A DNA stretch of 26,819 nucleotides from Thermococcus sp. (GTDB taxonomy: Archaea > Methanobacteriota_B > Thermococci > Thermococcales > Thermococcaceae): contig JALVWX010000221.1 of NCBI GenBank assembly GCA_027023165.1, forward strand, positions 1 to 26,819, given 5' to 3'. Position 1 is the first letter of the stretch, and every line of letters begins with the position of its first letter. Under the pieces are notes generated by a model. That model saw only the letters and a program-made list of their open reading frames with translations, was not told the DNA's origin and did no database searches. The translations under genes and the position numbers were made by a program. Of the stretch, positions 13,100 through 23,525 are shown one piece after another.

Positions 13100-14227
13100 T
13101 CAGCGGGTAATCTTTACCTGGTTCATCAGCTCAAGCGGTTCTGGGTGTTTCTCGAAGTACTCTCTGACGGGTTTGAGCAACTCGATGAGGTACTCGGCGA
13201 CGGCGTTCTTCAAATCGAGCGGGTGGAGCTTTCCTTCGGCGAAGTCCCTCTTGAGCTCCTCGAAGGTCGTGTAGGTGACGTCTCCACCGAACTTGGCAGG
13301 CCTGTGGATTGTGAACTCGGTCGGCTCCTCACGGAAGATTACGTGCTCGGCCCAGTCCAGAACGGGGTTGTATTTGACCTCCTTTGCCGGACAGAAGGCC
13401 TTCCTGAGCTTCTGCTTTATCTCCTCTGGCGAATCGTGGATGAACACAGCTGAGTAGGGCTTGCTCTTGCTCATCTTCATCTGGGTCTTGAGCTCTTTGA
13501 ACTGCTCCTCGCTCTCTATCGGCCAGACAGGAGGTTCCTGAAGGCCGAGGAGGAGGTGGTGGTGTAAAGCTACCGGTTTAAGCTTCTCGCCCTTCCACTC
13601 AAGGGGATGGTATTTGAGCCTTTGGGCCACTTCAATCGCTATAACGTGGGCCTTCCTCTGGTCCATTCCCGCATGAGCGATGGTAACGCCTTGGTAGAAG
13701 ATATCAGCGACCTGCATTGCGGGGTAAATCAACTTGGCGAAGTCTATGGCCTCTCCCATCTGCCTGCCCATTATCGTTATCGAGCGCATCATTCTAGCTA
13801 GCGTTACGTTCTTCGAGATGTCTATTACCGTCTGCCAGTAATCACCTTTCTCCAGTATCTCGCTCGCTAAAACGAACTCGACCTTGTCAGGGTCGCCACC
13901 CATGACCTTAATGCTCTGCTTCATGCCCTCCTTAAAGTATGTTAAGGCAACCTTCTGTATAGTCTCAAGGTCACCGCCGAGCTTGTCGTTTATCCAGCTG
14001 TGCCAGTCGGCAAGGAAAATCCTCGTCTTTATGCCCGCCTTCTGGAGGTCTGCTATTTTAGCGCCTGCCATCAGTCCGGTTCCGAGGTGAATGTAACCGC
14101 TTATCTCGAATCCGATGTAGTGTTGCATCGGGATTCCGACTTCGAGGAGATGCCTGAGGTTCTCCTCCGTAAGGAGTTCCTCCGTTGGCTTCCTCTTTAT
14201 GAGTTCTATCCTGCTCTCTATGTCCAT
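13100..14227 (-). CDS. tyrS: Tyrosyl-tRNA synthetase, archaeal type
   Basis: 375 residues, class I synthetase that charges tRNA-Tyr. The sequence agrees closely with the archaeal/eukaryal short TyrRS: HIGH-like HLGTG (about 47-51), the tyrosine-site region with YPAMQVADIFYQGV and HAGMDQRKAH, and the KMSKS loop (KMSKSKP, about residue 245). The C-terminal anticodon-binding domain ends QVKITR. The length equals that of Pyrococcus TyrRS. The ATG at 14227 follows AGGTGGT by four bases; the upstream in-frame GTG at 14236 lies inside that box. A TATA-like cctttaaagcc equivalent is at 14259-14268 on this strand. The Lrp gene begins 55 bp downstream on the same strand. Confidence 0.97.
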   Translation of the reverse strand: MDIESRIELIKRKPTEELLTEENLRHLLEVGIPMQHYIGFEISGYIHLGTGLMAGAKIADLQKAGIKTRIFLADWHSWINDKLGGDLETIQKVALTYFKEGMKQSIKVMGGDPDKVEFVLASEILEKGDYWQTVIDISKNVTLARMMRSITIMGRQMGEAIDFAKLIYPAMQVADIFYQGVTIAHAGMDQRKAHVIAIEVAQRLKYHPLEWKGEKLKPVALHHHLLLGLQEPPVWPIESEEQFKELKTQMKMSKSKPYSAVFIHDSPEEIKQKLRKAFCPAKEVKYNPVLDWAEHVIFREEPTEFTIHRPAKFGGDVTYTTFEELKRDFAEGKLHPLDLKNAVAEYLIELLKPVREYFEKHPEPLELMNQVKITR

Positions 14228-14258
14228 GCTTACCACCTGAAGCCAAAACGGTGGAGGG

Positions 14259-14380: not shown

Positions 14381-15481
14381 ATGAAGAAGGTTGCTATAGT
14401 AATGGCGGCCGTCGTGCTGCTGTCTCTTTTTGGGGTTTTTGCGACACCCATGGCCAGCGCTGCAAGCAGTGGAAAGCCAGTGATAGCGGTTGACCTCGCC
14501 CACGGCGAGAATCCGAAGGGATTGACCCCCGTTACCTACAAGAACAAGACCCTGACCGATGGGATGCTCGATGTTCTGACAGGCTACACCTTCGTCTACA
14601 TCGGCGACACCAAGTACGAGGACGAGCTTGGAATCAAGAACATCGGTGACAAGATAACCTACGATGCGCTTCACAACAACAACGTTACAATCCTCATAAT
14701 CGGCCAGCCCACAAGCCCGTTCCTGCCGGACGAGATCCAGGCCATAAGGAAGTGGCTCCTCGAGGGCGGGCACGTTCTCTGGGTTGCCGCTGACAGCGAC
14801 TACGGAAGCGGCGCCAAGGACCAGCAGTTCGTTGACAGCCTCCTCGACAATCTCAACATGACTAACCTCCGTGTTGACCTTTGTTCTGTTGAGGACGCTC
14901 AGAGTAATGCCGGTGGAAAGTCCTACCGTGTCGTTGCCTACGATGATCCTTGGAAGGATACTCCGATGAGGGACATCCTCGTCAAGAACCTCAAGCACGG
15001 TGGTAAGATACTCGCCCACGGTCCCGGTGTTGTTGCCTGGGTTGACCAGCCCGACGGAAACGGCAACTGGCACCCGCTCAACCAGAACGTCAAGCCTCAG
15101 AACGCCTACGTCATCGTCCACAGCAGCAACAGTTCTGACATAGTAGAGAACAACGCCCCGGCTGGAAACGCCTACCAGGCTGGAAGCACTGGCGAGTTCC
15201 CGATCATCGCCGTCCAGATAGTCACCCCGAAGGGCAAGAACCCGGACGTCATAATCGTCAGCGGTGAGACCCCAATAGGCGGCTACGAACCAATGTGGAC
15301 CAGCGAGTACTACAAGGTTCCGCTCGACGGCCCGCAGGTCATAAGCAACATCTTCGAGTGGAGCCTTGAGATGACCAAGAAGCCCGAGACAACCTCCAGC
15401 TCAAGCGGTGGAGGCATCTGCGGTCCGGCTTTGATAGTCGGCCTCGCCGCACTTCCACTCCTCTTCAGGAGGAGGAAGTGA
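14381..15481 (+). CDS. Secreted GATase/DUF4350-like protein with CGP-CTERM tail
   Basis: 366 residues. A signal peptide (about 1-28, ending MASAAS) precedes a domain opening with VIAVDLAHGENP and containing TFVYIGDTKYED, NVTILIIGQPTSPF and IRKWLLEGGHVLWVAADSDYG. This is a Rossmann-like outline seen in DUF4350/GATase1-like extracytoplasmic proteins. No catalytic Cys-His pair of true glutaminases is evident; its role is probably binding or scaffolding (inference). A Ser-rich linker leads to the C-terminal GGGICGP, a hydrophobic helix and FRRRK, the CGP-CTERM sorting tail (Cys at about 347), which implies surface anchoring. The ATG follows GGTGATACC. It heads the transporter cluster and is followed by its own T tract. 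The tail DNA is nearly identical to that of the phosphoesterase gene at 20805-22817. Confidence 0.82.
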   Translation: MKKVAIVMAAVVLLSLFGVFATPMASAASSGKPVIAVDLAHGENPKGLTPVTYKNKTLTDGMLDVLTGYTFVYIGDTKYEDELGIKNIGDKITYDALHNNNVTILIIGQPTSPFLPDEIQAIRKWLLEGGHVLWVAADSDYGSGAKDQQFVDSLLDNLNMTNLRVDLCSVEDAQSNAGGKSYRVVAYDDPWKDTPMRDILVKNLKHGGKILAHGPGVVAWVDQPDGNGNWHPLNQNVKPQNAYVIVHSSNSSDIVENNAPAGNAYQAGSTGEFPIIAVQIVTPKGKNPDVIIVSGETPIGGYEPMWTSEYYKVPLDGPQVISNIFEWSLEMTKKPETTSSSSGGGICGPALIVGLAALPLLFRRRK

Positions 15482-15484
15482 ACC
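15394..15484 (+). repeat. 91-bp near-identical repeat, copy 1 (CGP-CTERM coding tail)
   Basis: Aligns without gaps to 22730-22820 with 89 of 91 bases identical, including an uninterrupted 70-bp match (15394-15463). It covers the end of the Ser linker, the CGP motif, the membrane helix, the basic tail, the stop codon and three bases beyond. Confidence 0.95.
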
Positions 15485-15500
15485 TCTTTCCTTATTTTTA
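15485..15500 (+). terminator. T-rich terminator-like tract
   Basis: tctttccttattttta directly after the stop codon and before a separate TATA box, consistent with separate transcription units for the first CGP-CTERM gene and the binding-protein gene. Confidence 0.5.
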
Positions 15501-15514
15501 CATTTGAACCATAG

Positions 15515-15525
15515 CATTTTTAATG
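15515..15525 (+). promoter_or_regulatory. TATA box for the solute-binding protein gene
   Basis: catttttaatg is centred about 37 bp before the ATG at 15557. It predicts a leader of about 12 nt that includes GGAGGGGAT. Confidence 0.6.
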
Positions 15526-15556
15526 AACCTTCCTAATTTCACAGGAGGGGATTTGA

Positions 15557-17026
15557 ATGAAGAAGGTTGCGGCTGCACTTTTCATTCTGGTGTTGGCCCT
15601 GAGCGTTGTGGCCAGCGGCTGTATGAGCAGTAACGGGGGCAGCAATCCAACGACTACTTCGGGAAGTGGCGGAAAGGGCATAACCCTTGTTATAGTGACA
15701 AGGCACGACGCGACCATACAGTACAAGGTCAAGCAGATCTTCCTTAAGACCGACATAGCGAAGCAGTACCACATCACCAACATAAAGTTCATAGGCGTTC
15801 CCGAGGCCCTCTGGCCGCAGTACATCAAGCAGGGAGCGGACGTCGGCTGGGGTGGAGGACCGACCCTCTTTGACGACATGTACAAGATGGGCTACCTCCA
15901 GCCCATAACCGACCAGAAGGTCCTCGGCCTCATAGGGACGAAGATACCGGCCGAACTCGCTGGAATGCCGATGGTCAGAAAGGACCAGAACGGCAAGGTT
16001 TACTGGATAGCGGCGGCGCTCTCGTCCTTCGGTTTCACCGTCAACAAGCAGGTCCTCAACAAGCAGGGACTCCCGTTCCCAGAGAAGTGGGAGGATCTCG
16101 CCTCTCCCAAGTGGGCCGTTGACCCGCCGCAGTACGGGATAGCCGACCCGACGAGAAGCACATCCAACACGAGGATATACCAGATCATTCTCCAGACCTT
16201 TGGCTGGGATGAGGGATGGAAGGTAATGACCCTCATAGCCGCCAACTCCAAGATATACGAGGCAAGCGACGCGGTCAGGGATGCCGTCATCAACGGTGAG
16301 ATTGCGGCTGGAAACACCATTGACTTCTACGGCTACACCGCCATGAAGCAGAACCCGAACTGTGTCTACGTCATCCCGAAGGGAGAGAGCATCATCAACG
16401 GCGACCCGATAGCGCTCCTCAAGTACAGCAAGCACCCCGAGGCAGCCCAGGCCTTCATATACTGGGTCCTCACCGAGGGACAGGCTATCTGGATGAGTCC
16501 CGACATCAACAGGCTCCCGATATGGGGAGGCATCTTCAACCAGACCATCACCCAGCAGTACGCCAACGTCCTCTTCAATGGAAAGTTCGTCGGTAAGACC
16601 TACGGCCAGGCCAGGCCTGCGCTCCTCAAGGCCTACAACATCGCCATAAACAGCAAGGGAATACCCTTCAACGACAAAGAAGCGCTCGCCACCGTCAACA
16701 CCCTCCAGTACTACTTCAAGGCCACCCTCATCGACACCAACGGTCCGCTCCACCAGGCATGGATTTCGATGGTCAAGGCCTTGAAGGAGGGCAAGATAAC
16801 CCAGGACCAGTTCAACAGACTCAAGGATGAGCTTACCGCCCCAATACAGTTCAAGGACCCGCTCACCGGACAGACCACCACCCTGACGGAGGACTACGCC
16901 AAGAAGATAAACGACAAGATCGCCACCGACGCGAACTTCCAGAGCCAGATAATGCAGGAGTGGAGGAGTGCGGCCCAGGCCAAGTACAACAAGGTCCTCC
17001 AGGACCTCAAGTCAATGGAGGGCTGA
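15557..17026 (+). CDS. ABC transporter solute-binding lipoprotein
   Basis: 489 residues. An N-terminal signal with lipobox VVASGC (lipidated Cys22) is followed by a flexible Gly/Ser/Thr linker to about 38, which tethers the protein to the outer face of the membrane. The body (ITLVIVTRHDATIQYKV, VGWGGGPTLFDDM, IYEASDAVRDAVINGEIAAG, KHPEAAQAFIYWVLTEGQ) has the two-lobe pattern of the Fe3+/spermidine/2-aminoethylphosphonate class of type II binding proteins. It is about 100 residues longer than typical; the extra part is a Lys/Gln-rich helical C-terminus (about 390-489). The ATG follows GGAGGGGATTTGA. It has its own promoter, a T tract after it, and the permease and ATPase genes follow on the same strand. 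The substrate cannot be read from the sequence. Confidence 0.92.
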   Translation: MKKVAAALFILVLALSVVASGCMSSNGGSNPTTTSGSGGKGITLVIVTRHDATIQYKVKQIFLKTDIAKQYHITNIKFIGVPEALWPQYIKQGADVGWGGGPTLFDDMYKMGYLQPITDQKVLGLIGTKIPAELAGMPMVRKDQNGKVYWIAAALSSFGFTVNKQVLNKQGLPFPEKWEDLASPKWAVDPPQYGIADPTRSTSNTRIYQIILQTFGWDEGWKVMTLIAANSKIYEASDAVRDAVINGEIAAGNTIDFYGYTAMKQNPNCVYVIPKGESIINGDPIALLKYSKHPEAAQAFIYWVLTEGQAIWMSPDINRLPIWGGIFNQTITQQYANVLFNGKFVGKTYGQARPALLKAYNIAINSKGIPFNDKEALATVNTLQYYFKATLIDTNGPLHQAWISMVKALKEGKITQDQFNRLKDELTAPIQFKDPLTGQTTTLTEDYAKKINDKIATDANFQSQIMQEWRSAAQAKYNKVLQDLKSMEG

Positions 17027-17030
17027 AGTC

Positions 17031-17052
17031 CTTTCCATTTTCTTCTCAATTT
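17031..17052 (+). terminator. T-rich terminator-like tract after the binding-protein gene
   Basis: ctttccattttcttctcaat followed by more T shortly after the stop. A partial terminator here would allow more binding protein than permease, the usual stoichiometry of importers. Confidence 0.45.
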
Positions 17053-17153
17053 TGACTGTTCTACTCGGTTCTTTTAACATACCCCTGTGCAGAGTTGTAG
17101 CGTTAATCCGGGCGTTGGGATTCAGGATTTTTCAAAGTAAACCATTCAGAAAC

Positions 17154-17162
17154 CTTTAAAAC
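17154..17162 (+). promoter_or_regulatory. TATA box for the permease-ATPase unit
   Basis: ctttaaaac lies about 73 bp before the ATG and predicts a leader of about 45 nt that includes the Shine-Dalgarno box and the mini-ORF. Confidence 0.5.
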
Positions 17163-17230
17163 CCCGCCCATCAAAACCGGGTAGAAACTAAAGGGCAGTG
17201 TGAGTTAAAAAGCAATGGGAGGTTAACACA

Positions 17231-19078
17231 ATGGCGGTCAACAAGTGGGTTGAGAGATTCTTTGGGACCCCCCTTCCTGACGGCGTGGTTATAACCTCGT
17301 TCCTGTTTCCACTCCTGTATCTTGTGGCGTTTCTCGTAATACCAGTGCTCGTGATGTTGCTGACGGCCTTCATTTACAACGGCCACATCTCGATCTACTG
17401 GTTCAAGAGCATCTTCGGCGCACCGTACTACTTCAACCCGCTCCATCCATCGGGGTTCTTCGTTAAGACCATCCCCTGGGGCAACGAGCAGGTCTACTAC
17501 TTCTCGGGCTGGGACTTCGGCGTCGTCATCAACTCCATAGTGGTGTCGATAAGCGTCATGATACTGACGACCATTCTCGGCGTTACATTCGCTTTCGTCA
17601 TGGCGCGCTACGACTTCCCGGGCAAGAACATCGTCAGGATCCTACTCTTCGTCCCGCTCCTCGTCACCCCGTTCGTCAACGTCGTCGTCGTTAAGAAGAT
17701 GTTCCTCCCGAACGGGCTGATAAACTGGATCTTCTACCAGCACCTCCACCTCTTCCCGCACCCGATATGGATCGACGGTCTCGTCGGCGTTGTCATCGCC
17801 CAGTCGATAACATACTACCCGATAGTCTACCTCAACGCCTACGCGAGCTTCATCAACATCGACCCCAGCCTCGAGGAGCAGGCCGAGAATCTCGGGAGCA
17901 GGGGCTTCCACCTCTTCAGGACGGTAACCTTCCCCCTTGCCCTTCCAGGAATAGCGGCCGGAGCAGCCCTCGTGGGAATATTCAGCCTTGAGGACCTCGC
18001 CGCACCCATAGTCTTCCAGGGAAGCGCGATAGCCAAGAAGCTCATGTCCTTCCAAATCTACAGCTCATTCGTATCGGGATTCGCGGTCGGCAACCCGCAG
18101 ATGGCCGCGCTGAGCCTCGTCATGCTCACGATAGCGCTCATAATATTCCTTGCAATCCGCTGGTACGTCGGGATGAAGCAGTACGCCATGCTCAGCAAGG
18201 GGGGCAGGTGGAAGCCGAGGGTCGCCAAGCCCAAGTCCTGGCAGGCCGCACTGATCTACCTCGTGGTAATCCCGCTCCTCCTGCTGACCATCTTCCCACA
18301 GGTCGGAGTCGTTCTGCTGGCCTTCTCGGAGCGCTGGTACGGTACCTGGCCCGAGGGATTCACCCTCTCCAACATGGAGGCTCTGCTCACCCAGCCGGAC
18401 ATCCTAAGGGTCATCGAGAACAGCCTGCTTTACTCCACGGCGGCAATATTCATCATCATCCTGCTCTCTCTGACGGCTTCCTACGCCGCCGGAAGGTTCA
18501 AGAAGGCCAAGCTCGCACCGATCCTCGACAGTCTCGCGACGATACCCATAGCCGTCCCCGGAATTGTCATAGCGATGAGCTATTTCTTCTTCTTCTCGAC
18601 GGTTCCGCCCTTCAAGGGAAGTGCCTTAGACCCAACCAACCTGCTCGCCTTCTTCCCGGGAGCGGCTCTCATCCTGGCGTACTCGATAAGGCGTCTGCCC
18701 TTCGCGGCGCGTTCCATCTCGGCGGGAATCCAGCAGGTCCACGTCTCGCTTGAGGAGGCGGCTATAAACCTGGGCGCCGGCAGGTGGAAGGCCCTGACGA
18801 GCATACTGATCCCCATGATACTCCTGAACCTCCTCGGCGGGGCTATGCTGAGCTTCGTTTACTGTATGAGCGAAACCAGCGTCGGCATCACCCTCGGTTC
18901 CATAAACTCCACGTGGTACCCAATAACGGCGAAAATGAAGGAGCTTATCATGGGTTCGGTCGGAAGCGCCAGCCTCGCGGCCGCGCTCGGCGTCTTCCTG
19001 ATGCTCGTGCAGATACTTGCGATAGTCCTCGCGAACGTGATAACCAAGCAGAGGTACTCGTTCATCGGTCTTACATGA
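17231..19078 (+). CDS. Fused double-domain ABC transporter permease
   Basis: 615 residues with about twelve membrane helices in two homologous halves. Each half has the cytoplasmic EAA loop that contacts the ATPase: EEQAENLGSRGFHLFRTVTF at about 213 and EEAAINLGAGRWKALTSILI at about 505. This fused FbpB-like form replaces the two separate permeases of PotBC-type systems. The halves are joined by a basic segment (KGGRWKPRVAKPKSWQ). It works with the binding lipoprotein upstream and the ATPase 10 bp downstream. The start ATG follows GGGAGGTTAACACA. A three-codon upstream frame overlaps that ribosome-binding site. Import direction and class are confident; the substrate is unknown. Confidence 0.94.
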   Translation: MAVNKWVERFFGTPLPDGVVITSFLFPLLYLVAFLVIPVLVMLLTAFIYNGHISIYWFKSIFGAPYYFNPLHPSGFFVKTIPWGNEQVYYFSGWDFGVVINSIVVSISVMILTTILGVTFAFVMARYDFPGKNIVRILLFVPLLVTPFVNVVVVKKMFLPNGLINWIFYQHLHLFPHPIWIDGLVGVVIAQSITYYPIVYLNAYASFINIDPSLEEQAENLGSRGFHLFRTVTFPLALPGIAAGAALVGIFSLEDLAAPIVFQGSAIAKKLMSFQIYSSFVSGFAVGNPQMAALSLVMLTIALIIFLAIRWYVGMKQYAMLSKGGRWKPRVAKPKSWQAALIYLVVIPLLLLTIFPQVGVVLLAFSERWYGTWPEGFTLSNMEALLTQPDILRVIENSLLYSTAAIFIIILLSLTASYAAGRFKKAKLAPILDSLATIPIAVPGIVIAMSYFFFFSTVPPFKGSALDPTNLLAFFPGAALILAYSIRRLPFAARSISAGIQQVHVSLEEAAINLGAGRWKALTSILIPMILLNLLGGAMLSFVYCMSETSVGITLGSINSTWYPITAKMKELIMGSVGSASLAAALGVFLMLVQILAIVLANVITKQRYSFIGLT

Positions 19079-19088
19079 GGTGGTTAAG

Positions 19089-20153
19089 ATGGTTGAAGTT
19101 AAGCTTCAGAACATCGTTAAGCGGTTTGGAGATACCGTCGCCCTCAAGGGCATAAGCCTTGATATAAAGCACGGGGAGCTGTTCACCCTGCTCGGACCCA
19201 GCGGCTGCGGGAAGTCAACGACTCTGAGGATTATAGCGGGTTTGGATTACCCGGACGAGGGGAAGCTCTACTTCGGTGATCAGGACGTTACCTACCTTCC
19301 GTCCCACCAGAAGGGCGCCGTCCTCGTCTTCCAGAACTACGCCCTCTGGCCGCACATGACCGTCTTCGACAACGTTGCCTACGGACTCAGGCTCAGGAAG
19401 ATCCCAAAGGAGGAGATCAAAAGGAAGGTTGAGTGGGCGCTCGAACTCGTGAAGCTCAAGGGCTTCGAGGATCGCTACCCAACCCAGCTGAGCGGTGGCC
19501 AGCAGCAGCGTGTGGCAATAGCCAGGGCCTTGGTCGTTGAGCCGAAGGTTCTCCTCCTCGACGAGCCGCTCAGCAACCTCGACGCGAAGTTGAGGCTTGA
19601 GATGCGCTCGGAGATAAAGAGGATTCAGCGCGAGCTTGGAATAACCGTCATCTACGTCACCCACGACCAGGAGGAGGCAATGGCGATAAGCGACAGGATA
19701 GCGGTCATGAACGTCGGAACCGTTGAGCAGGTCGGAACTCCCAAGGAAATTTACGAGACGCCCAAGACGGAGTTCGTCGCCAGCTTCATGGGCAAGACCA
19801 ACGTCATCCCAGCCAAAGTCGTCGAGAGGAACGGCGACCGCGTTACGGTGGAGTTCGAGAGCTTCCGTCTGGATGGCCTTCCATATACAGGGAAGAGCGA
19901 CAACGTGGTCGTCGTCATAAGGCCCGAAAGAATAAGACTCAAGCCCGTCGAGAACGCGGTTTCGCTCACGGGGACCGTTGACCTCGTCGAGTACTACGGC
20001 TTCTTCGTCGAGGTCGTCGGCATCTTCGGGGAGACGAGGATCATAGCGAGGACGATAAGCGACAGGGAGGTAAGCCACCTCAAGCCTACCCAGCCGGTTA
20101 CCTTCTACATCGACAGGGACGATATAATCGTCCTCCCGAAGCAACAGCTCTGA
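19089..20153 (+). CDS. ABC transporter ATPase with C-terminal TOBE-like domain
   Basis: 354 residues. Walker A GPSGCGKST (36-44), Q-loop VFQNYALWPHM, signature LSGGQQQRVAIARAL (about 135), Walker B VLLLDEPLSNLDAKLR and switch THDQEEAM are all present. The region after about 235 (GKTNVIPAKVVERNGDRVTV to VRPERIRLKP) is a TOBE-type regulatory domain as in MalK, PotA and FbpC. It powers the permease immediately upstream; the genes are 10 bp apart. The ATG at 19089 follows GAGGTGGTT by two bases (aag spacing). The GTG at 19080 lies within that box and is rejected. MalK-class regulation through the C-terminal domain is possible, but no partner is visible. Confidence 0.95.
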   Translation: MVEVKLQNIVKRFGDTVALKGISLDIKHGELFTLLGPSGCGKSTTLRIIAGLDYPDEGKLYFGDQDVTYLPSHQKGAVLVFQNYALWPHMTVFDNVAYGLRLRKIPKEEIKRKVEWALELVKLKGFEDRYPTQLSGGQQQRVAIARALVVEPKVLLLDEPLSNLDAKLRLEMRSEIKRIQRELGITVIYVTHDQEEAMAISDRIAVMNVGTVEQVGTPKEIYETPKTEFVASFMGKTNVIPAKVVERNGDRVTVEFESFRLDGLPYTGKSDNVVVVIRPERIRLKPVENAVSLTGTVDLVEYYGFFVEVVGIFGETRIIARTISDREVSHLKPTQPVTFYIDRDDIIVLPKQQL

Positions 20154-20180
20154 TCTCTTCTCCCTTTTTGGGTGGTTTTT

Positions 20181-20771
20181 ATGCTGGGCAACCTCAAAGA
20201 AGGGAAGGTCTATGAGGTTCTTCTTATCACGTCCTCCAACACAACCCCCGTAGGGGTTGTCCGGGGAGGAGATATTCTCGAGTTCAAGCTCTTTCCAGGA
20301 AGGAGCTTCGAGGACCTTCTTGAAAATCCTGCGGCGTCTATACAGGTCACGAACGACGTTGAGCTTATCGTCAGGCTTGCCCTCAACCTTCCCGTAGATG
20401 TTGGCTTTGGGGGGAAGGACGGGCACCGCTGGATTAAGGGCCTTCCGGGCTGGTACGGGTCGGTCGAGTACCGCCTCAACACATGGAGGGACAACCTGGG
20501 GGAGAGCAGGGTTTTAATAGGGAGGTTCGTTCCTGAAGGGAAAATCCCTGGCTCCCTGCCGGTTATCCCATGGAGCCGGGCGGACTGCAGGCTCATTGAG
20601 ATGGCAGTTCACTTCACGAGATTCATCGTTTCCCGCGATGAAAAGCTCGCGAAGGCGATAGCGGAACTCTACTCGGAATACAGAAGGTTTGGAGGGGATT
20701 CGGAGGTCGCGGAGTACATGATGAGTCGCCTTGGAGCTTTCACTTCGAAAGGAAAACGGGAAAACTTTTAA
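20181..20771 (+). CDS. DUF447 family protein (flavin-reductase-like split barrel)
   Basis: 196 residues from the ATG giving MLGNLKEGKVYEVLLIT. The opening V-Y-E-V-LLIT-S-S-N-T-TPVGVVR is the DUF447 pattern (E-x-x-x-T-x-N near an aPiGv strand). The next segments, LFPGRSFEDLLENPAASIQVTND, also fit. Known structures in this archaeal family show a flavin-reductase-like split barrel that binds FMN; the reaction is not established. It lies 27 bp after the ATPase, so it is probably part of the transporter operon. The ATG follows GGGTGGTTTTT; an upstream in-frame GTG at 20172 lies within the box. Its stop codon overlaps the TATA box of the phosphoesterase gene. Confidence 0.82.
   Translation: MLGNLKEGKVYEVLLITSSNTTPVGVVRGGDILEFKLFPGRSFEDLLENPAASIQVTNDVELIVRLALNLPVDVGFGGKDGHRWIKGLPGWYGSVEYRLNTWRDNLGESRVLIGRFVPEGKIPGSLPVIPWSRADCRLIEMAVHFTRFIVSRDEKLAKAIAELYSEYRRFGGDSEVAEYMMSRLGAFTSKGKRENF
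20765..20771 (+). promoter_or_regulatory. TATA box for the metallophosphoesterase gene
   Basis: cttttaa, centred about 37 bp before the ATG at 20805, overlaps the DUF447 stop codon. It would allow the phosphoesterase to be made separately from the transporter operon. Confidence 0.55.
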
Positions 20772-20804
20772 CATGCTCCTCCTCCCATATTACTTGGTGA
20801 TACC

Positions 20805-22817
20805 ATGGCCAAGCGGCTGATTGCAGGCATTGCCCTGTTGATAGGAGTTATAATGCTCTTCGGAGCGGTGCCAGCGAGCGCGGCTCAGTACGACACGACC
20901 TACAGCAAGTATCTTACCCAGCCAGCCCCCGCCATTCCAGCCTTTGCCATTCCCGGCGGGAGCTTCACCCTACATCTGAAGGACGGGGTAAGCGTTGATG
21001 GAATCCAGGCGGTGTCCGTTCTTCACGGACCCTACGACCTCCAGGTAGTCAAAACCGAGGGGAACACCGTAACCGTCAAGGTGCCCGGCGATATAGTCCC
21101 TGATGACTACTTCCTTCTGATAAAGACGGACAAGGGGACCCTCGTTCTCCCGAACGGGCTTAAGGTCTTCAAAGAGTGGCCGAAGACACTTAAACTCGCC
21201 TGGGTCAGCGACACCCACGTCACCAGCAGCGCCAAGATCGGCTACGTCTGCGGTCCCTACTTCCAGCACAGCCCCTACAAGCTCGAGAAGATGTGCTCTA
21301 ACCCGATACCGCTCCACAGCGTCGTTGCAACCGACAGCGCGTACACCTATTGGGCGATGCAGGGCGTTGATCTCATCATAAACACCGGTGACGACGTCGA
21401 CAGCAGCAACGACCTCATAGGCTACGAGATAATGTACAACATCATGAGGGACGCCGCCTCTGCAGGACAGGCACACATTAGCATCAAGGGCAACCACGAC
21501 AACCCGCCGAAGATATACTCCCAGATCATAGCCCCGCCGGTGTTCTACACGACCATCGGTAAGTTCCTTATAATCGGTCTCGATACCGGCGGCGACCGCG
21601 GATGGCCGACCATGGATGAAATCCAGTTCATGGAGAAGGTTCTCGACGAGCACCCCGGCTACACCCCGATAATCCTCTACCACCACCCGTTCTTCTTCGC
21701 CCCGCGCTGGAACTACCGGGGAGGGACGATAAGCGGCCTTGACCCGAGCAACGACGCCGACTGGGCCAAGCTCAAGAACTATATTGGCAACTACTGGAAG
21801 GGCAACCTCACCGTTGCGAGGCGCTTCCTGGAGGACGTCGTCAAGTACAACATCCCGCTCACCATGAGCGGCCACATCCACCACGACATGTACTGGACCT
21901 ACACCGACAAGGAGGGCCACGTCCACTACTTCCTCACGCTCACCTCGACCGGCGCCCCCGACAAAGAGAGCAACCCTGCCACCAATCCCAAGCACAGTCC
22001 GACCTGGTACGGAACCAACCTCGTGGTTATAAGCCAGAACGGAAGCGTTGAAATGCCCCTCACCCCGGTCAAGATAGAGGACAACAAGGTCAAGAGCGAC
22101 TTCATCAGCGTCCCCGTCCCGCAGGAGTTCATGGTCTTCCGCCACACCACAAACTTCGGAACGGCCGCCAAGTTCATCAACGAACTCAACCACAGCGTTA
22201 CAGGCCCGATAACCTTCGTCATCCCGGAGGGGGCCAAGATAGACCCGCAGCACACCAACATAACCTACAAGATTCTCGGCGAGAGGACCATCGGAGACAA
22301 CACCTACCTCATGGTGAACGCCACCGTCCCCGCGGGGATTTCACAGATAGTCATCACCAAGGGAACCGACAGTGAGAAGCCGGTCGTCCAGATAGCCTAC
22401 CTCCAGCCGAGCCACCCGAAGGTTGACCAGGAGTCGACCCTCTACTTCACCGCCCAGGACAACCTCGGAATAAGGGACCTCTACGCCCAGGTTATTGATG
22501 AGAGCGGCAAGCCAGTCGCCTACGGCAAGGTTACGAAGTTCCCTGCCGAGCCTGGAAGCGGAAAGCCGACGAACAACTTCTACACCGTTGAGCTTCCTCC
22601 GCTCAAGGCCGGAAAGTACAAGATAGAGGTCGTTGCGGTCGACTTTTACGGCAACAAGGCCGTCGTCACGAAGGCCCTCAGCGTTGGAAGCGCAACCCCA
22701 CACCCGACCTCCTCAAGCACTACAACCAGCTCCAGCTCAAGCGGTGGAGGCATCTGCGGTCCGGCTTTGATAGTCGGCCTCGCCGCACTTCCACTCCTCC
22801 TCAGGAAGAGGAAGTGA
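20805..22817 (+). CDS. Secreted metallophosphoesterase with CGP-CTERM tail
   Basis: 670 residues. A signal peptide (about 1-27, ending ASAA) and an N-terminal beta domain of about 100 residues precede a calcineurin-type phosphoesterase. Metal-binding motifs are in order: VSDTH (about 134), NTGDDVDS (about 194), KGNHD (about 226), YHHPFFF (about 291) and SGHIHHD (about 354). A beta-sandwich-like region at about 530-630 (VVQIAYLQPSHPKVDQEST, then GKYKIEVVAVDFYGNKA) is followed by a Ser/Thr linker and the CGP-CTERM tail (Cys at about 651). It would hydrolyse phosphate esters at the cell surface. The start follows GGTGATACC. Closely placed after the ABC transporter, it may release the ligand taken up, which is inference. 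A T tract follows. Confidence 0.92.
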   Translation: MAKRLIAGIALLIGVIMLFGAVPASAAQYDTTYSKYLTQPAPAIPAFAIPGGSFTLHLKDGVSVDGIQAVSVLHGPYDLQVVKTEGNTVTVKVPGDIVPDDYFLLIKTDKGTLVLPNGLKVFKEWPKTLKLAWVSDTHVTSSAKIGYVCGPYFQHSPYKLEKMCSNPIPLHSVVATDSAYTYWAMQGVDLIINTGDDVDSSNDLIGYEIMYNIMRDAASAGQAHISIKGNHDNPPKIYSQIIAPPVFYTTIGKFLIIGLDTGGDRGWPTMDEIQFMEKVLDEHPGYTPIILYHHPFFFAPRWNYRGGTISGLDPSNDADWAKLKNYIGNYWKGNLTVARRFLEDVVKYNIPLTMSGHIHHDMYWTYTDKEGHVHYFLTLTSTGAPDKESNPATNPKHSPTWYGTNLVVISQNGSVEMPLTPVKIEDNKVKSDFISVPVPQEFMVFRHTTNFGTAAKFINELNHSVTGPITFVIPEGAKIDPQHTNITYKILGERTIGDNTYLMVNATVPAGISQIVITKGTDSEKPVVQIAYLQPSHPKVDQESTLYFTAQDNLGIRDLYAQVIDESGKPVAYGKVTKFPAEPGSGKPTNNFYTVELPPLKAGKYKIEVVAVDFYGNKAVVTKALSVGSATPHPTSSSTTTSSSSSGGGICGPALIVGLAALPLLLRKRK

Positions 22818-22820
22818 ACC
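22730..22820 (+). repeat. 91-bp near-identical repeat, copy 2 (CGP-CTERM coding tail)
   Basis: Second copy of 15394-15484 in direct orientation, 89 of 91 bases identical. The two differences (positions 22800 and 22807) both change an amino acid (Leu for Phe, Lys for Arg), so no silent difference separates the copies. Confidence 0.95.
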
Positions 22821-22853: not shown

Positions 22854-22883
22854 CCCAAAGCCCTATTCTCTAAGGTGGTTGAA

Positions 22884-23525
22884 ATGACCAGGAAGCTCTA
22901 CTACGAGGACGCCTATCTGAAAGAGGCCAAGGCAAAGGTTCTGGAAATCAAGGAGAACGCCCTGCTCCTCGACCAGACGGTTTTCTACCCAACGGGCGGC
23001 GGCCAGCCCCACGACAGAGGGATGATAAGCGGCGTCGAGGTTCTCGACGTCTACAAGGACGATACCGGAAACGTTTGGCACGCCGTTGCCGAGCCGGAGA
23101 AGTTCAAGGTTGGGGACGAGGTCGAGCTTAAAATCGACTGGGACTACCGCTACAGACTGATGAGAATCCACAGCGCGATGCACCTCCTCGAGCACGTCCT
23201 CAATCTTGTCCTCCCCGGCGAGTGGCAGCTCTACGGTAGTGGAATGAGCGCCGAGAAGGGCCGCTACGATATAGTCTACCCAGAGAACATCAACCAGTGG
23301 AAGGAGCAGATTATAGAGACCTTCAACAGACTCGTTGACAAAGGCGGTGAAATGAGAATATGGTGGGAAGGAGAAACGCGCTACACCCAGATAAGGGACT
23401 TCGAGGTAATCCCCTGCGGAGGAACCCACGTGAAGGACATCAAGGAAATCGGCCACCTCAAGAAGCTCAAGCGCTCCAGCCTCGGAAGGGGAAAGCAGAG
23501 AATAGAGATTTGGCTCGAGGATTGA
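22884..23525 (+). CDS. alaX: AlaX-type alanyl-tRNA editing hydrolase
   Basis: 213 residues, the size of the medium AlaX form. It is a stand-alone version of the alanyl-tRNA synthetase editing domain that removes wrongly attached amino acid (chiefly serine) from tRNA-Ala. The N-terminal barrel has VFYPTGGGQPHDRG (about 33-46). The zinc and catalytic ligands are all present: H96-x3-H100 (RIHSAMHLL) and C178-x3-H182 (PCGGTHV). The ATG at 22884 follows AGGTGGTT with GAA spacing; the in-frame GTG at 22875 lies in that box. It converges on the Trm-G10 gene with a gap of only five bases. Confidence 0.93.
   Translation: MTRKLYYEDAYLKEAKAKVLEIKENALLLDQTVFYPTGGGQPHDRGMISGVEVLDVYKDDTGNVWHAVAEPEKFKVGDEVELKIDWDYRYRLMRIHSAMHLLEHVLNLVLPGEWQLYGSGMSAEKGRYDIVYPENINQWKEQIIETFNRLVDKGGEMRIWWEGETRYTQIRDFEVIPCGGTHVKDIKEIGHLKKLKRSSLGRGKQRIEIWLED

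Follow-up and report, generated by a model that had tools for sequence, protein, structure and literature searches.

How do two otherwise unrelated genes of one genome come to end in almost the same DNA? The question is raised by a contig of Thermococcus sp. (JALVWX010000221.1, assembly GCA_027023165.1), all 26,819 nucleotides (nt) of which were analysed and are called the window here. It encodes a secreted GATase-like protein (gene A) and a secreted metallophosphoesterase-like protein (gene B), both of which end in a CGP-CTERM sorting tail. Comparison with other genomes shows that such tails are homogenised within genomes, that this has recurred and that some tails are mosaics. With a probability of roughly 0.87, the cause is recurrent ectopic gene conversion without crossover, in which a sorting-tail module of about 40 to 120 bp is copied between genes and the tails of each genome become alike.

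The shared 3' end of two unrelated genes

Direct alignment of 15394-15484 (gene A) with 22730-22820 (gene B) gives 89 equal bases out of 91, with an identical run of 70, and the stop codon and the next three bases are common to both copies. The earlier note had given these figures, and recounting returned the same ones. It had also stated that both mismatches change an amino acid, as is the case (15464, T/C, Phe/Leu; 15471, G/A, Arg/Lys), and that the remainder of the two proteins is unrelated; codons upstream of the tail show no kinship. In a search with a seed of 14 and a minimum length of 24, this tail pair was the sole direct-repeat family of the window (108 nt, 93%).

Both proteins match all 20 positions of CGP_CTERM (TIGR04288), gene A with 30.8 bits and gene B with 29.2 bits (curated cut-off 21), and hydrophobic N-termini are visible in both translations. 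TIGR04288 itself describes a protein motif, not exchange at the level of DNA, and it is the silent positions that are striking. All 26 codons that specify the same residue in both tails are identical, against 8.8 expected from the codon usage of the window (P about 2.9e-13). Identity is complete also before the last eight codons (16/16, comprising the last 4 linker and the first 12 tail codons).

Silent-site identity within and between genomes

Tails were compared among genomes taken one per species. A scan of genome contigs for relatives yielded 26 loci, and TIGR04288 was searched for in sets of 7, 41 and 11 genomes, the 41 including all 11 and two of the 7; for the 41-genome set, the matches used are among the matches listed. 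G001 to G007 gave 67 matches, 12 of which were not taken into the tail set, and ten genomes of the 11-genome set gave 91, with two left out, both below the cut-off. The eleventh genome (G015) was partly sampled and is excluded from the 18-genome set in which near-identity was counted. Of 227 tail candidates 204 were kept, the other 23 having failed a filter for CGP, length or hydrophobicity. They were grouped by gene body into phosphoesterases (OG0, as gene B), GATase-like proteins (OG1, as gene A), thiamine-type binding proteins (OG2), proteins without a Pfam match (OG3), proteins with a glucodextranase C domain (OG4) and SBP_bac_5 proteins (OG5 and OG6). Tails with a silent codon identity of 0.90 or more are called near-identical.

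Among the 32 genomes that hold both an OG0 and an OG1 tail, as this test required, 304 of 489 same-residue codons (0.622) were identical within genomes and 0.452 between genomes, a result reached in 0/10000 permutations. When the last eight or more codons were left out, the values were 254/416 (0.611) within and 0.403 between, again with 0/10000 permutations. Codon preference shared by the genes of a genome, together with protein-level constraint on the sorting signal, would also make silent sites more alike within genomes, and the codon usage of each genome does predict slightly more matches for tails of the same genome (0.399 vs 0.349). However, this accounts for just a part of the observed gap, the 26/26 identical codons of the window have a P of about 3e-13 under such preference, and in some genomes identity extends beyond the stop codon. 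In addition, no clear within-genome excess is seen in these genomes for OG0-OG3, OG0-OG5, OG1-OG5 or OG3-OG6, which counts against codon usage as cause. Codon preference was thus rejected, and almost no weight is left to it.

Silent identity was raised within genomes (< 100 of 10000 permutations) for six of the 18 gene pairs: OG0-OG1, OG0-OG2, OG0-OG6, OG1-OG3, OG1-OG6 and OG2-OG6. Two of the six, OG0-OG2 and OG2-OG6, become weaker once the 3' end is left out (160 and 296 of 10000 permutations). In the 18-genome set, near-identity was found in 11 of 184 comparable different-gene pairs within genomes and in 3 of 2898 between genomes (Fisher 8e-12, with pairs taken as independent). A near-identical pair is present in 12 of the 34 genomes that have two or more tails, although two of the 12 (G018 and G042) are close kin. 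By gene pair, near-identity occurs in 7/32 genomes for OG0-OG1 (the window, G013, G018, G024, G042 and X015 and X019, the last two being relative loci labelled by locus rather than genome), 2/17 for OG0-OG2, 2/8 for OG0-OG6, 2/8 for OG1-OG6 and 1/12 for OG1-OG3, with none in the remaining 13 gene pairs.

The near-identical pairs of G001, G003, G006, G009 and G039, and those of G024 involving OG6, have their members on different contigs, so a side-by-side position is probably not needed. In G013, G018 and G042 the near-identical OG0-OG1 tails are carried by contigs 1.87-2.07 Mb long, making an assembly artefact less likely. As a separate observation, the OG3 tails of G024 (locus L140) and G009 (L154) agree in most codons and in the 14 bases that follow the stop; OG3 therefore looks there like an ordinary orthologue, outside the exchange.

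Orthologues tell the same story from the other side. The earlier note had proposed comparing silent divergence in tails with that in gene bodies. The window tails are identical to each other at 18/18 silent codons; compared with their orthologues in G030 and G001 they score 9/14, 10/14, 15/18 and 12/18, and the gene bodies are 0.63-0.77 identical to these orthologues at silent codons. In the close pair G018 and G042, with DNA identities of 0.94 and 0.976 for the gene bodies, tails of the same genome agree at 14/14 and 19/20 codons and orthologous tails at 18/20 and 11/14. One Leu and one Pro codon differ between G018 and G042, and they differ identically in both genes. In a tree of 64 tails, a single clade of phosphoesterase tails was rejected (approximately unbiased test, p = 0.0009), and the tree needs 18 label changes vs 21.6 for shuffled labels.

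For the window alone a single copying event suffices, by which one gene newly gained the tail cassette from the other without ongoing exchange. However, a CGP tail ends 62 of 63 phosphoesterase homologues (the exception, P0031, lacks its end) and the 54 closest of the 94 homologues of gene A. As homologues of both genes already carry it, the tail was replaced rather than gained. Near-identical pairs in 12 genomes and the partial tracts described below likewise argue against a one-off duplication, which is considered very improbable.

Tract borders and the biased last eight codons

Recurrent conversion should leave borders, and these are seen in several genomes. In G003 the OG0 and OG2 tails are identical over a stretch that begins 39 nt upstream of the Cys codon and ends 18 nt after the stop; for the OG1 and OG6 tails of G009 the corresponding distances are 42 nt and 7 nt. 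Three mosaics were judged by eye from the alignments. In G017, OG0 and OG1 are alike in the 3' half of the tail and in 17 nt past the stop; in G040, sharing is confined to 10 nt before the tail and its first 29 nt, with gene-specific ends beyond; and in G041 the linker bases are alike (28/30) and the tail is not shared. Identical runs of at least 10 bases past the stop occur in G001 (10 nt), G003 (18 nt) and G017 (17 nt), and none is present among 3862 cross-genome pairs of OG0, OG1, OG2 and OG6.

At codon -4, the Arg/Lys difference between the window tails matches the gene-specific state in G001 (AAG in OG0, AGG in OG1), and the end of the tract therefore probably lies before codon -4. The OG1 relatives P0064-P0066 have the core IVGLAA that is present in both window tails, and the closest OG0 relatives, P0002 and P0003 (96% and 92% identical overall), have IVALAA instead. 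This form of the tail core suggests that copying went from OG1 to OG0, a direction qualified by the OG0 tail of G030, which also has the GLAA form. The GATase-like tail would then probably have replaced most of the phosphoesterase tail, beginning in the linker and stopping near codon -7, with the RKRK end peculiar to the phosphoesterase left in place.

Many tails end in LLLRRRK encoded as CTC CTC CTC AGG AGG AGG AAG, a near-palindrome, and part of CTCCTC..AGGA.GAGGAAGTGA, a palindrome of codons common in these tails genus-wide, falls within the 70-base run of the window. CTC makes up 0.80 of Leu codons at positions -8 to -6, whereas its share is 0.52 in gene bodies and 0.40 at other places of these tails, and CTCCTCCTCAGGAGG is carried by 40 of 76 LLLRR tails (3.1 expected). 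With such a bias of the last eight or so codons, likeness in that stretch is weak evidence and misleading when taken alone.

The bias may reflect a constraint on RNA or DNA, the gene end having to form a hairpin or another signal that keeps silent sites alike. Compared with synonymous shuffles, tail ends do fold better: the mean z is -0.57 over 199 tails, as against -0.06 in the body control and 0.02 over 172 other gene ends, and z is -2.5 for the end of gene A and -2.1 for that of gene B. Hairpin pairing is 0.842 vs 0.823 with shuffled partners, a value reached in 1 of 500 shuffles, and a possible hairpin formed by the LLLRRRK codons would reach the stop codon. The gain in pairing is small, however, and two control gene ends are equally low, that of the ATPase gene (-0.57, 38 ends) and that of the gene at 13100-14236, which we take to encode a tRNA synthetase (-0.55, 15 ends), which argues against a special role of the hairpin. 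Furthermore, the constraint covers the last eight or so codons only, upstream of which silent identity is still 0.61 within and 0.40 between genomes, and a fixed signal would be alike across species, as the observed tails are not. As the full cause, RNA or DNA constraint is quite improbable; it was rejected upstream of the last eight codons and kept as a contributor for those eight. The argument of the earlier note that protein-level constraint does not preserve third codon positions accordingly stands upstream of the last eight codons and fails within them, where third positions are biased or constrained genus-wide.

Probable conversion without crossover at the transporter locus

Taken together, the comparison of silent identity within and between genomes, the mosaics, the recurrence in 12 of 34 genomes and the tree test support the suggestion of recent copying or ongoing conversion made in the earlier note. 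The 3' ends of CGP-CTERM genes would constitute a short dispersed repeat, homogenised inside each genome by ectopic conversion without crossover, in which the tail of one gene serves as template and overwrites that of another, otherwise unrelated gene. The tract would comprise part of the Ser/Gly linker and the CGP sorting signal, sometimes with the stop codon and up to 18 nt beyond, its ends being variable. The agent is presumably the cell's own homologous recombination, helped by recombination at short homology and by polyploidy. In Pyrococcus furiosus, markers were replaced with 40 nt of homology (text of PMC3462420 that cites Farkas 2012), and an excerpt of PMC4502288 gives 7-19 chromosome copies for Thermococcus kodakarensis. 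Homogenisation may be tolerated or favoured, since every tail would have to suit the same sorting machine.

Several points weigh against recurrent conversion. The codon bias of the last eight codons is common to tails genus-wide. OG0 and OG1 tails are not near-identical in 25 of 32 genomes, the partner in the same genome is strictly the best match in just 7 of 32, and 12 of the 18 gene pairs tested did not fall below 100 of 10000 permutations. Both the permutation and the Fisher tests ignore kinship among genomes. The tail tree leaves 33 of its 60 forks open, which makes individual placements untrustworthy, and its labels show weak clustering by gene (values as low arose in 39 and 46 of 500 shuffles). 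No near-identical pair lies far apart on one contig, the unlinked ones being on different contigs of drafts, and the genome of the window is represented by its two window tails alone. Finally, PMC5495485 states that homologous recombination in T. kodakarensis was known for stretches of 500 bp upwards only.

The features of the window are collected in Table 1. As the earlier note had it, the repeat copies flank a transporter locus, with genes for an ATP-binding cassette (ABC) transporter and a DUF447 protein between the tails. The Pfam matches of gene A (PF14258, 27.7 bits; PF09822, 23.8 bits) are both below the Pfam cut-off. At E 0.01 no Pfam family matches gene B; many of its homologues have PF00149 and source names such as metallophosphoesterase.

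Table 1. Coordinates of the tails, the genes that carry them and the genes between them
Feature	Position	Strand	Basis
Gene A, secreted DUF4350 / GATase-like protein, 366 amino acids, CGP-CTERM tail	14381..15481	+	Open reading frame; TIGR04288 at residues 346-365
Shared 3' tail, copy A (linker SSSSGGGI, CGP tail, stop and 3 nt)	15394..15484	+	89/91 vs copy B; 108-nt direct repeat
CGP_CTERM sorting domain, gene A	15416..15475	+	TIGR04288 positions 1-20
Potential RNA hairpin, last codons and stop of gene A	15450..15480	+	71-nt stretch, minimum free energy -20.9 kcal/mol, z -3.46 vs dinucleotide shuffles
ABC transporter solute-binding protein, between tails	15557..17026	+	PF01547, PF13416 and PF13343 over cut-off
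ABC permease, two permease stretches in one protein	17231..19078	+	PF00528 twice
ABC ATPase	19080..20153	+	PF00005 and PF08402 over cut-off
DUF447 protein	20172..20771	+	PF04289 and PF20766 over cut-off
Gene B, secreted metallophosphoesterase-like protein, 670 amino acids, CGP-CTERM tail	20805..22817	+	Open reading frame; TIGR04288; homologues
Shared 3' tail, copy B	22730..22820	+	89/91 vs copy A
CGP_CTERM sorting domain, gene B	22752..22811	+	TIGR04288 positions 1-20, residues 650-669
Potential RNA hairpin, end of gene B	22786..22816	+	71-nt stretch, minimum free energy -17.0 kcal/mol, z -2.70

A direct repeat around a locus could also lead to its loss, and the earlier note had supposed that the tails might mediate deletion of the transporter genes. 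In a search of 61 genomes, one per species, gene A was matched in 59 and gene B in 60, and no deletion between the repeats with one tail left was found among them. The sole genome with gene A but no gene B is G060, the contig of which ends before the place of gene B. Among 44 loci, none brings gene A directly against the flank of gene B, and 36 have the order GATase-like protein, binding protein, permease, ATPase, DUF447 and phosphoesterase (two of the 36 repeat a genome). As these loci were mostly chosen for holding both genes, the count of deletions is based on the 61-genome search.

A single contig carries both genes in 48 of the 61 genomes. The distance between them is 5-9 kb in 43 of the 48, the exceptions being G012, G021, G023, G031 and G053. 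In G012, G021, L011 and L012 there is a phosphoesterase without the transporter in the stretch read, and G031 has phosphoesterase remnants only. In G023 (L205 and L206) the phosphoesterase is at 243509 and the GATase-like gene and the transporter are near 1290000 on the same contig; tail-to-tail deletion was rejected for this genome, the transporter genes being still beside the GATase-like gene. As to the phosphoesterase itself, its matches at L209 (G031:C1:174000-190000) are two short pieces, with the neighbour found at 22875-23525 of the window kept, and its matches at G030:C19:392122-394019 and G043:C3:166151-168000 fall in two separate open frames, pointing to a frameshift or an assembly error.

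The conserved spacing bears also on the agent of exchange, which may be a mobile-element integrase of low sequence specificity, of the pTN3 type, instead of the cell's own recombination. Like the exchange seen here, the reactions described in the relevant text of PMC5495485 join short paralogous stretches in Thermococcus, the Thermococcus nautili enzyme recombining segments that share at least 104 bp. In contrast to it, they are crossovers that give inversions, and no sorting tails are among the four gene pairs named there. Genes A and B that still lie 5-9 kb apart in 43 of 48 genomes are as expected without crossover, and an integrase is accordingly judged improbable.

Other known systems resemble the preferred reading, ectopic conversion of tails, in part. 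In the concerted evolution of duplicated prokaryotic genes such as tuf and mtrA, as presented in an excerpt of PMC6053082, copies within a genome are closer than orthologues in many lineages, as here, and this is attributed to gene conversion; however, whole duplicated genes are involved there, and here 3' ends of about 40-120 bp on unrelated bodies. The VARTIG modules of Thermococcales, in the portion of PMC8416519 that concerns them, likewise show recombination in a C-terminal region with a putative sorting signal. Unlike here, exchange is between species and diversifies an Ig domain, its authors having found none between loci of one genome; exchange of CGP tails is within a genome and makes tails alike. 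In the open-licence PMC literature, to the extent of the text available there, no earlier report of gene conversion of CTERM or LPXTG sorting tails was found.

A bolder extension is that CGP-CTERM tails form a genome-wide exchangeable module, held uniform by frequent conversion at about 40-120 bp of homology, with the LLLRRR palindrome as initiation site and a species "dialect" matched to the sorting enzyme. It is judged unlikely; if true, it would mean conversion at homology lengths below those reported for recombination in T. kodakarensis.

For Thermococcus, the tails provide natural evidence that stretches of about 40-120 bp are converted between separate sites, and they are a warning that trees of CGP tails do not follow the genes. 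More generally, the findings suggest that copying of DNA between unrelated genes, besides selection on the protein, can spread a sorting signal and keep it uniform, and that the same pattern may be worth seeking in other C-terminal sorting signals.

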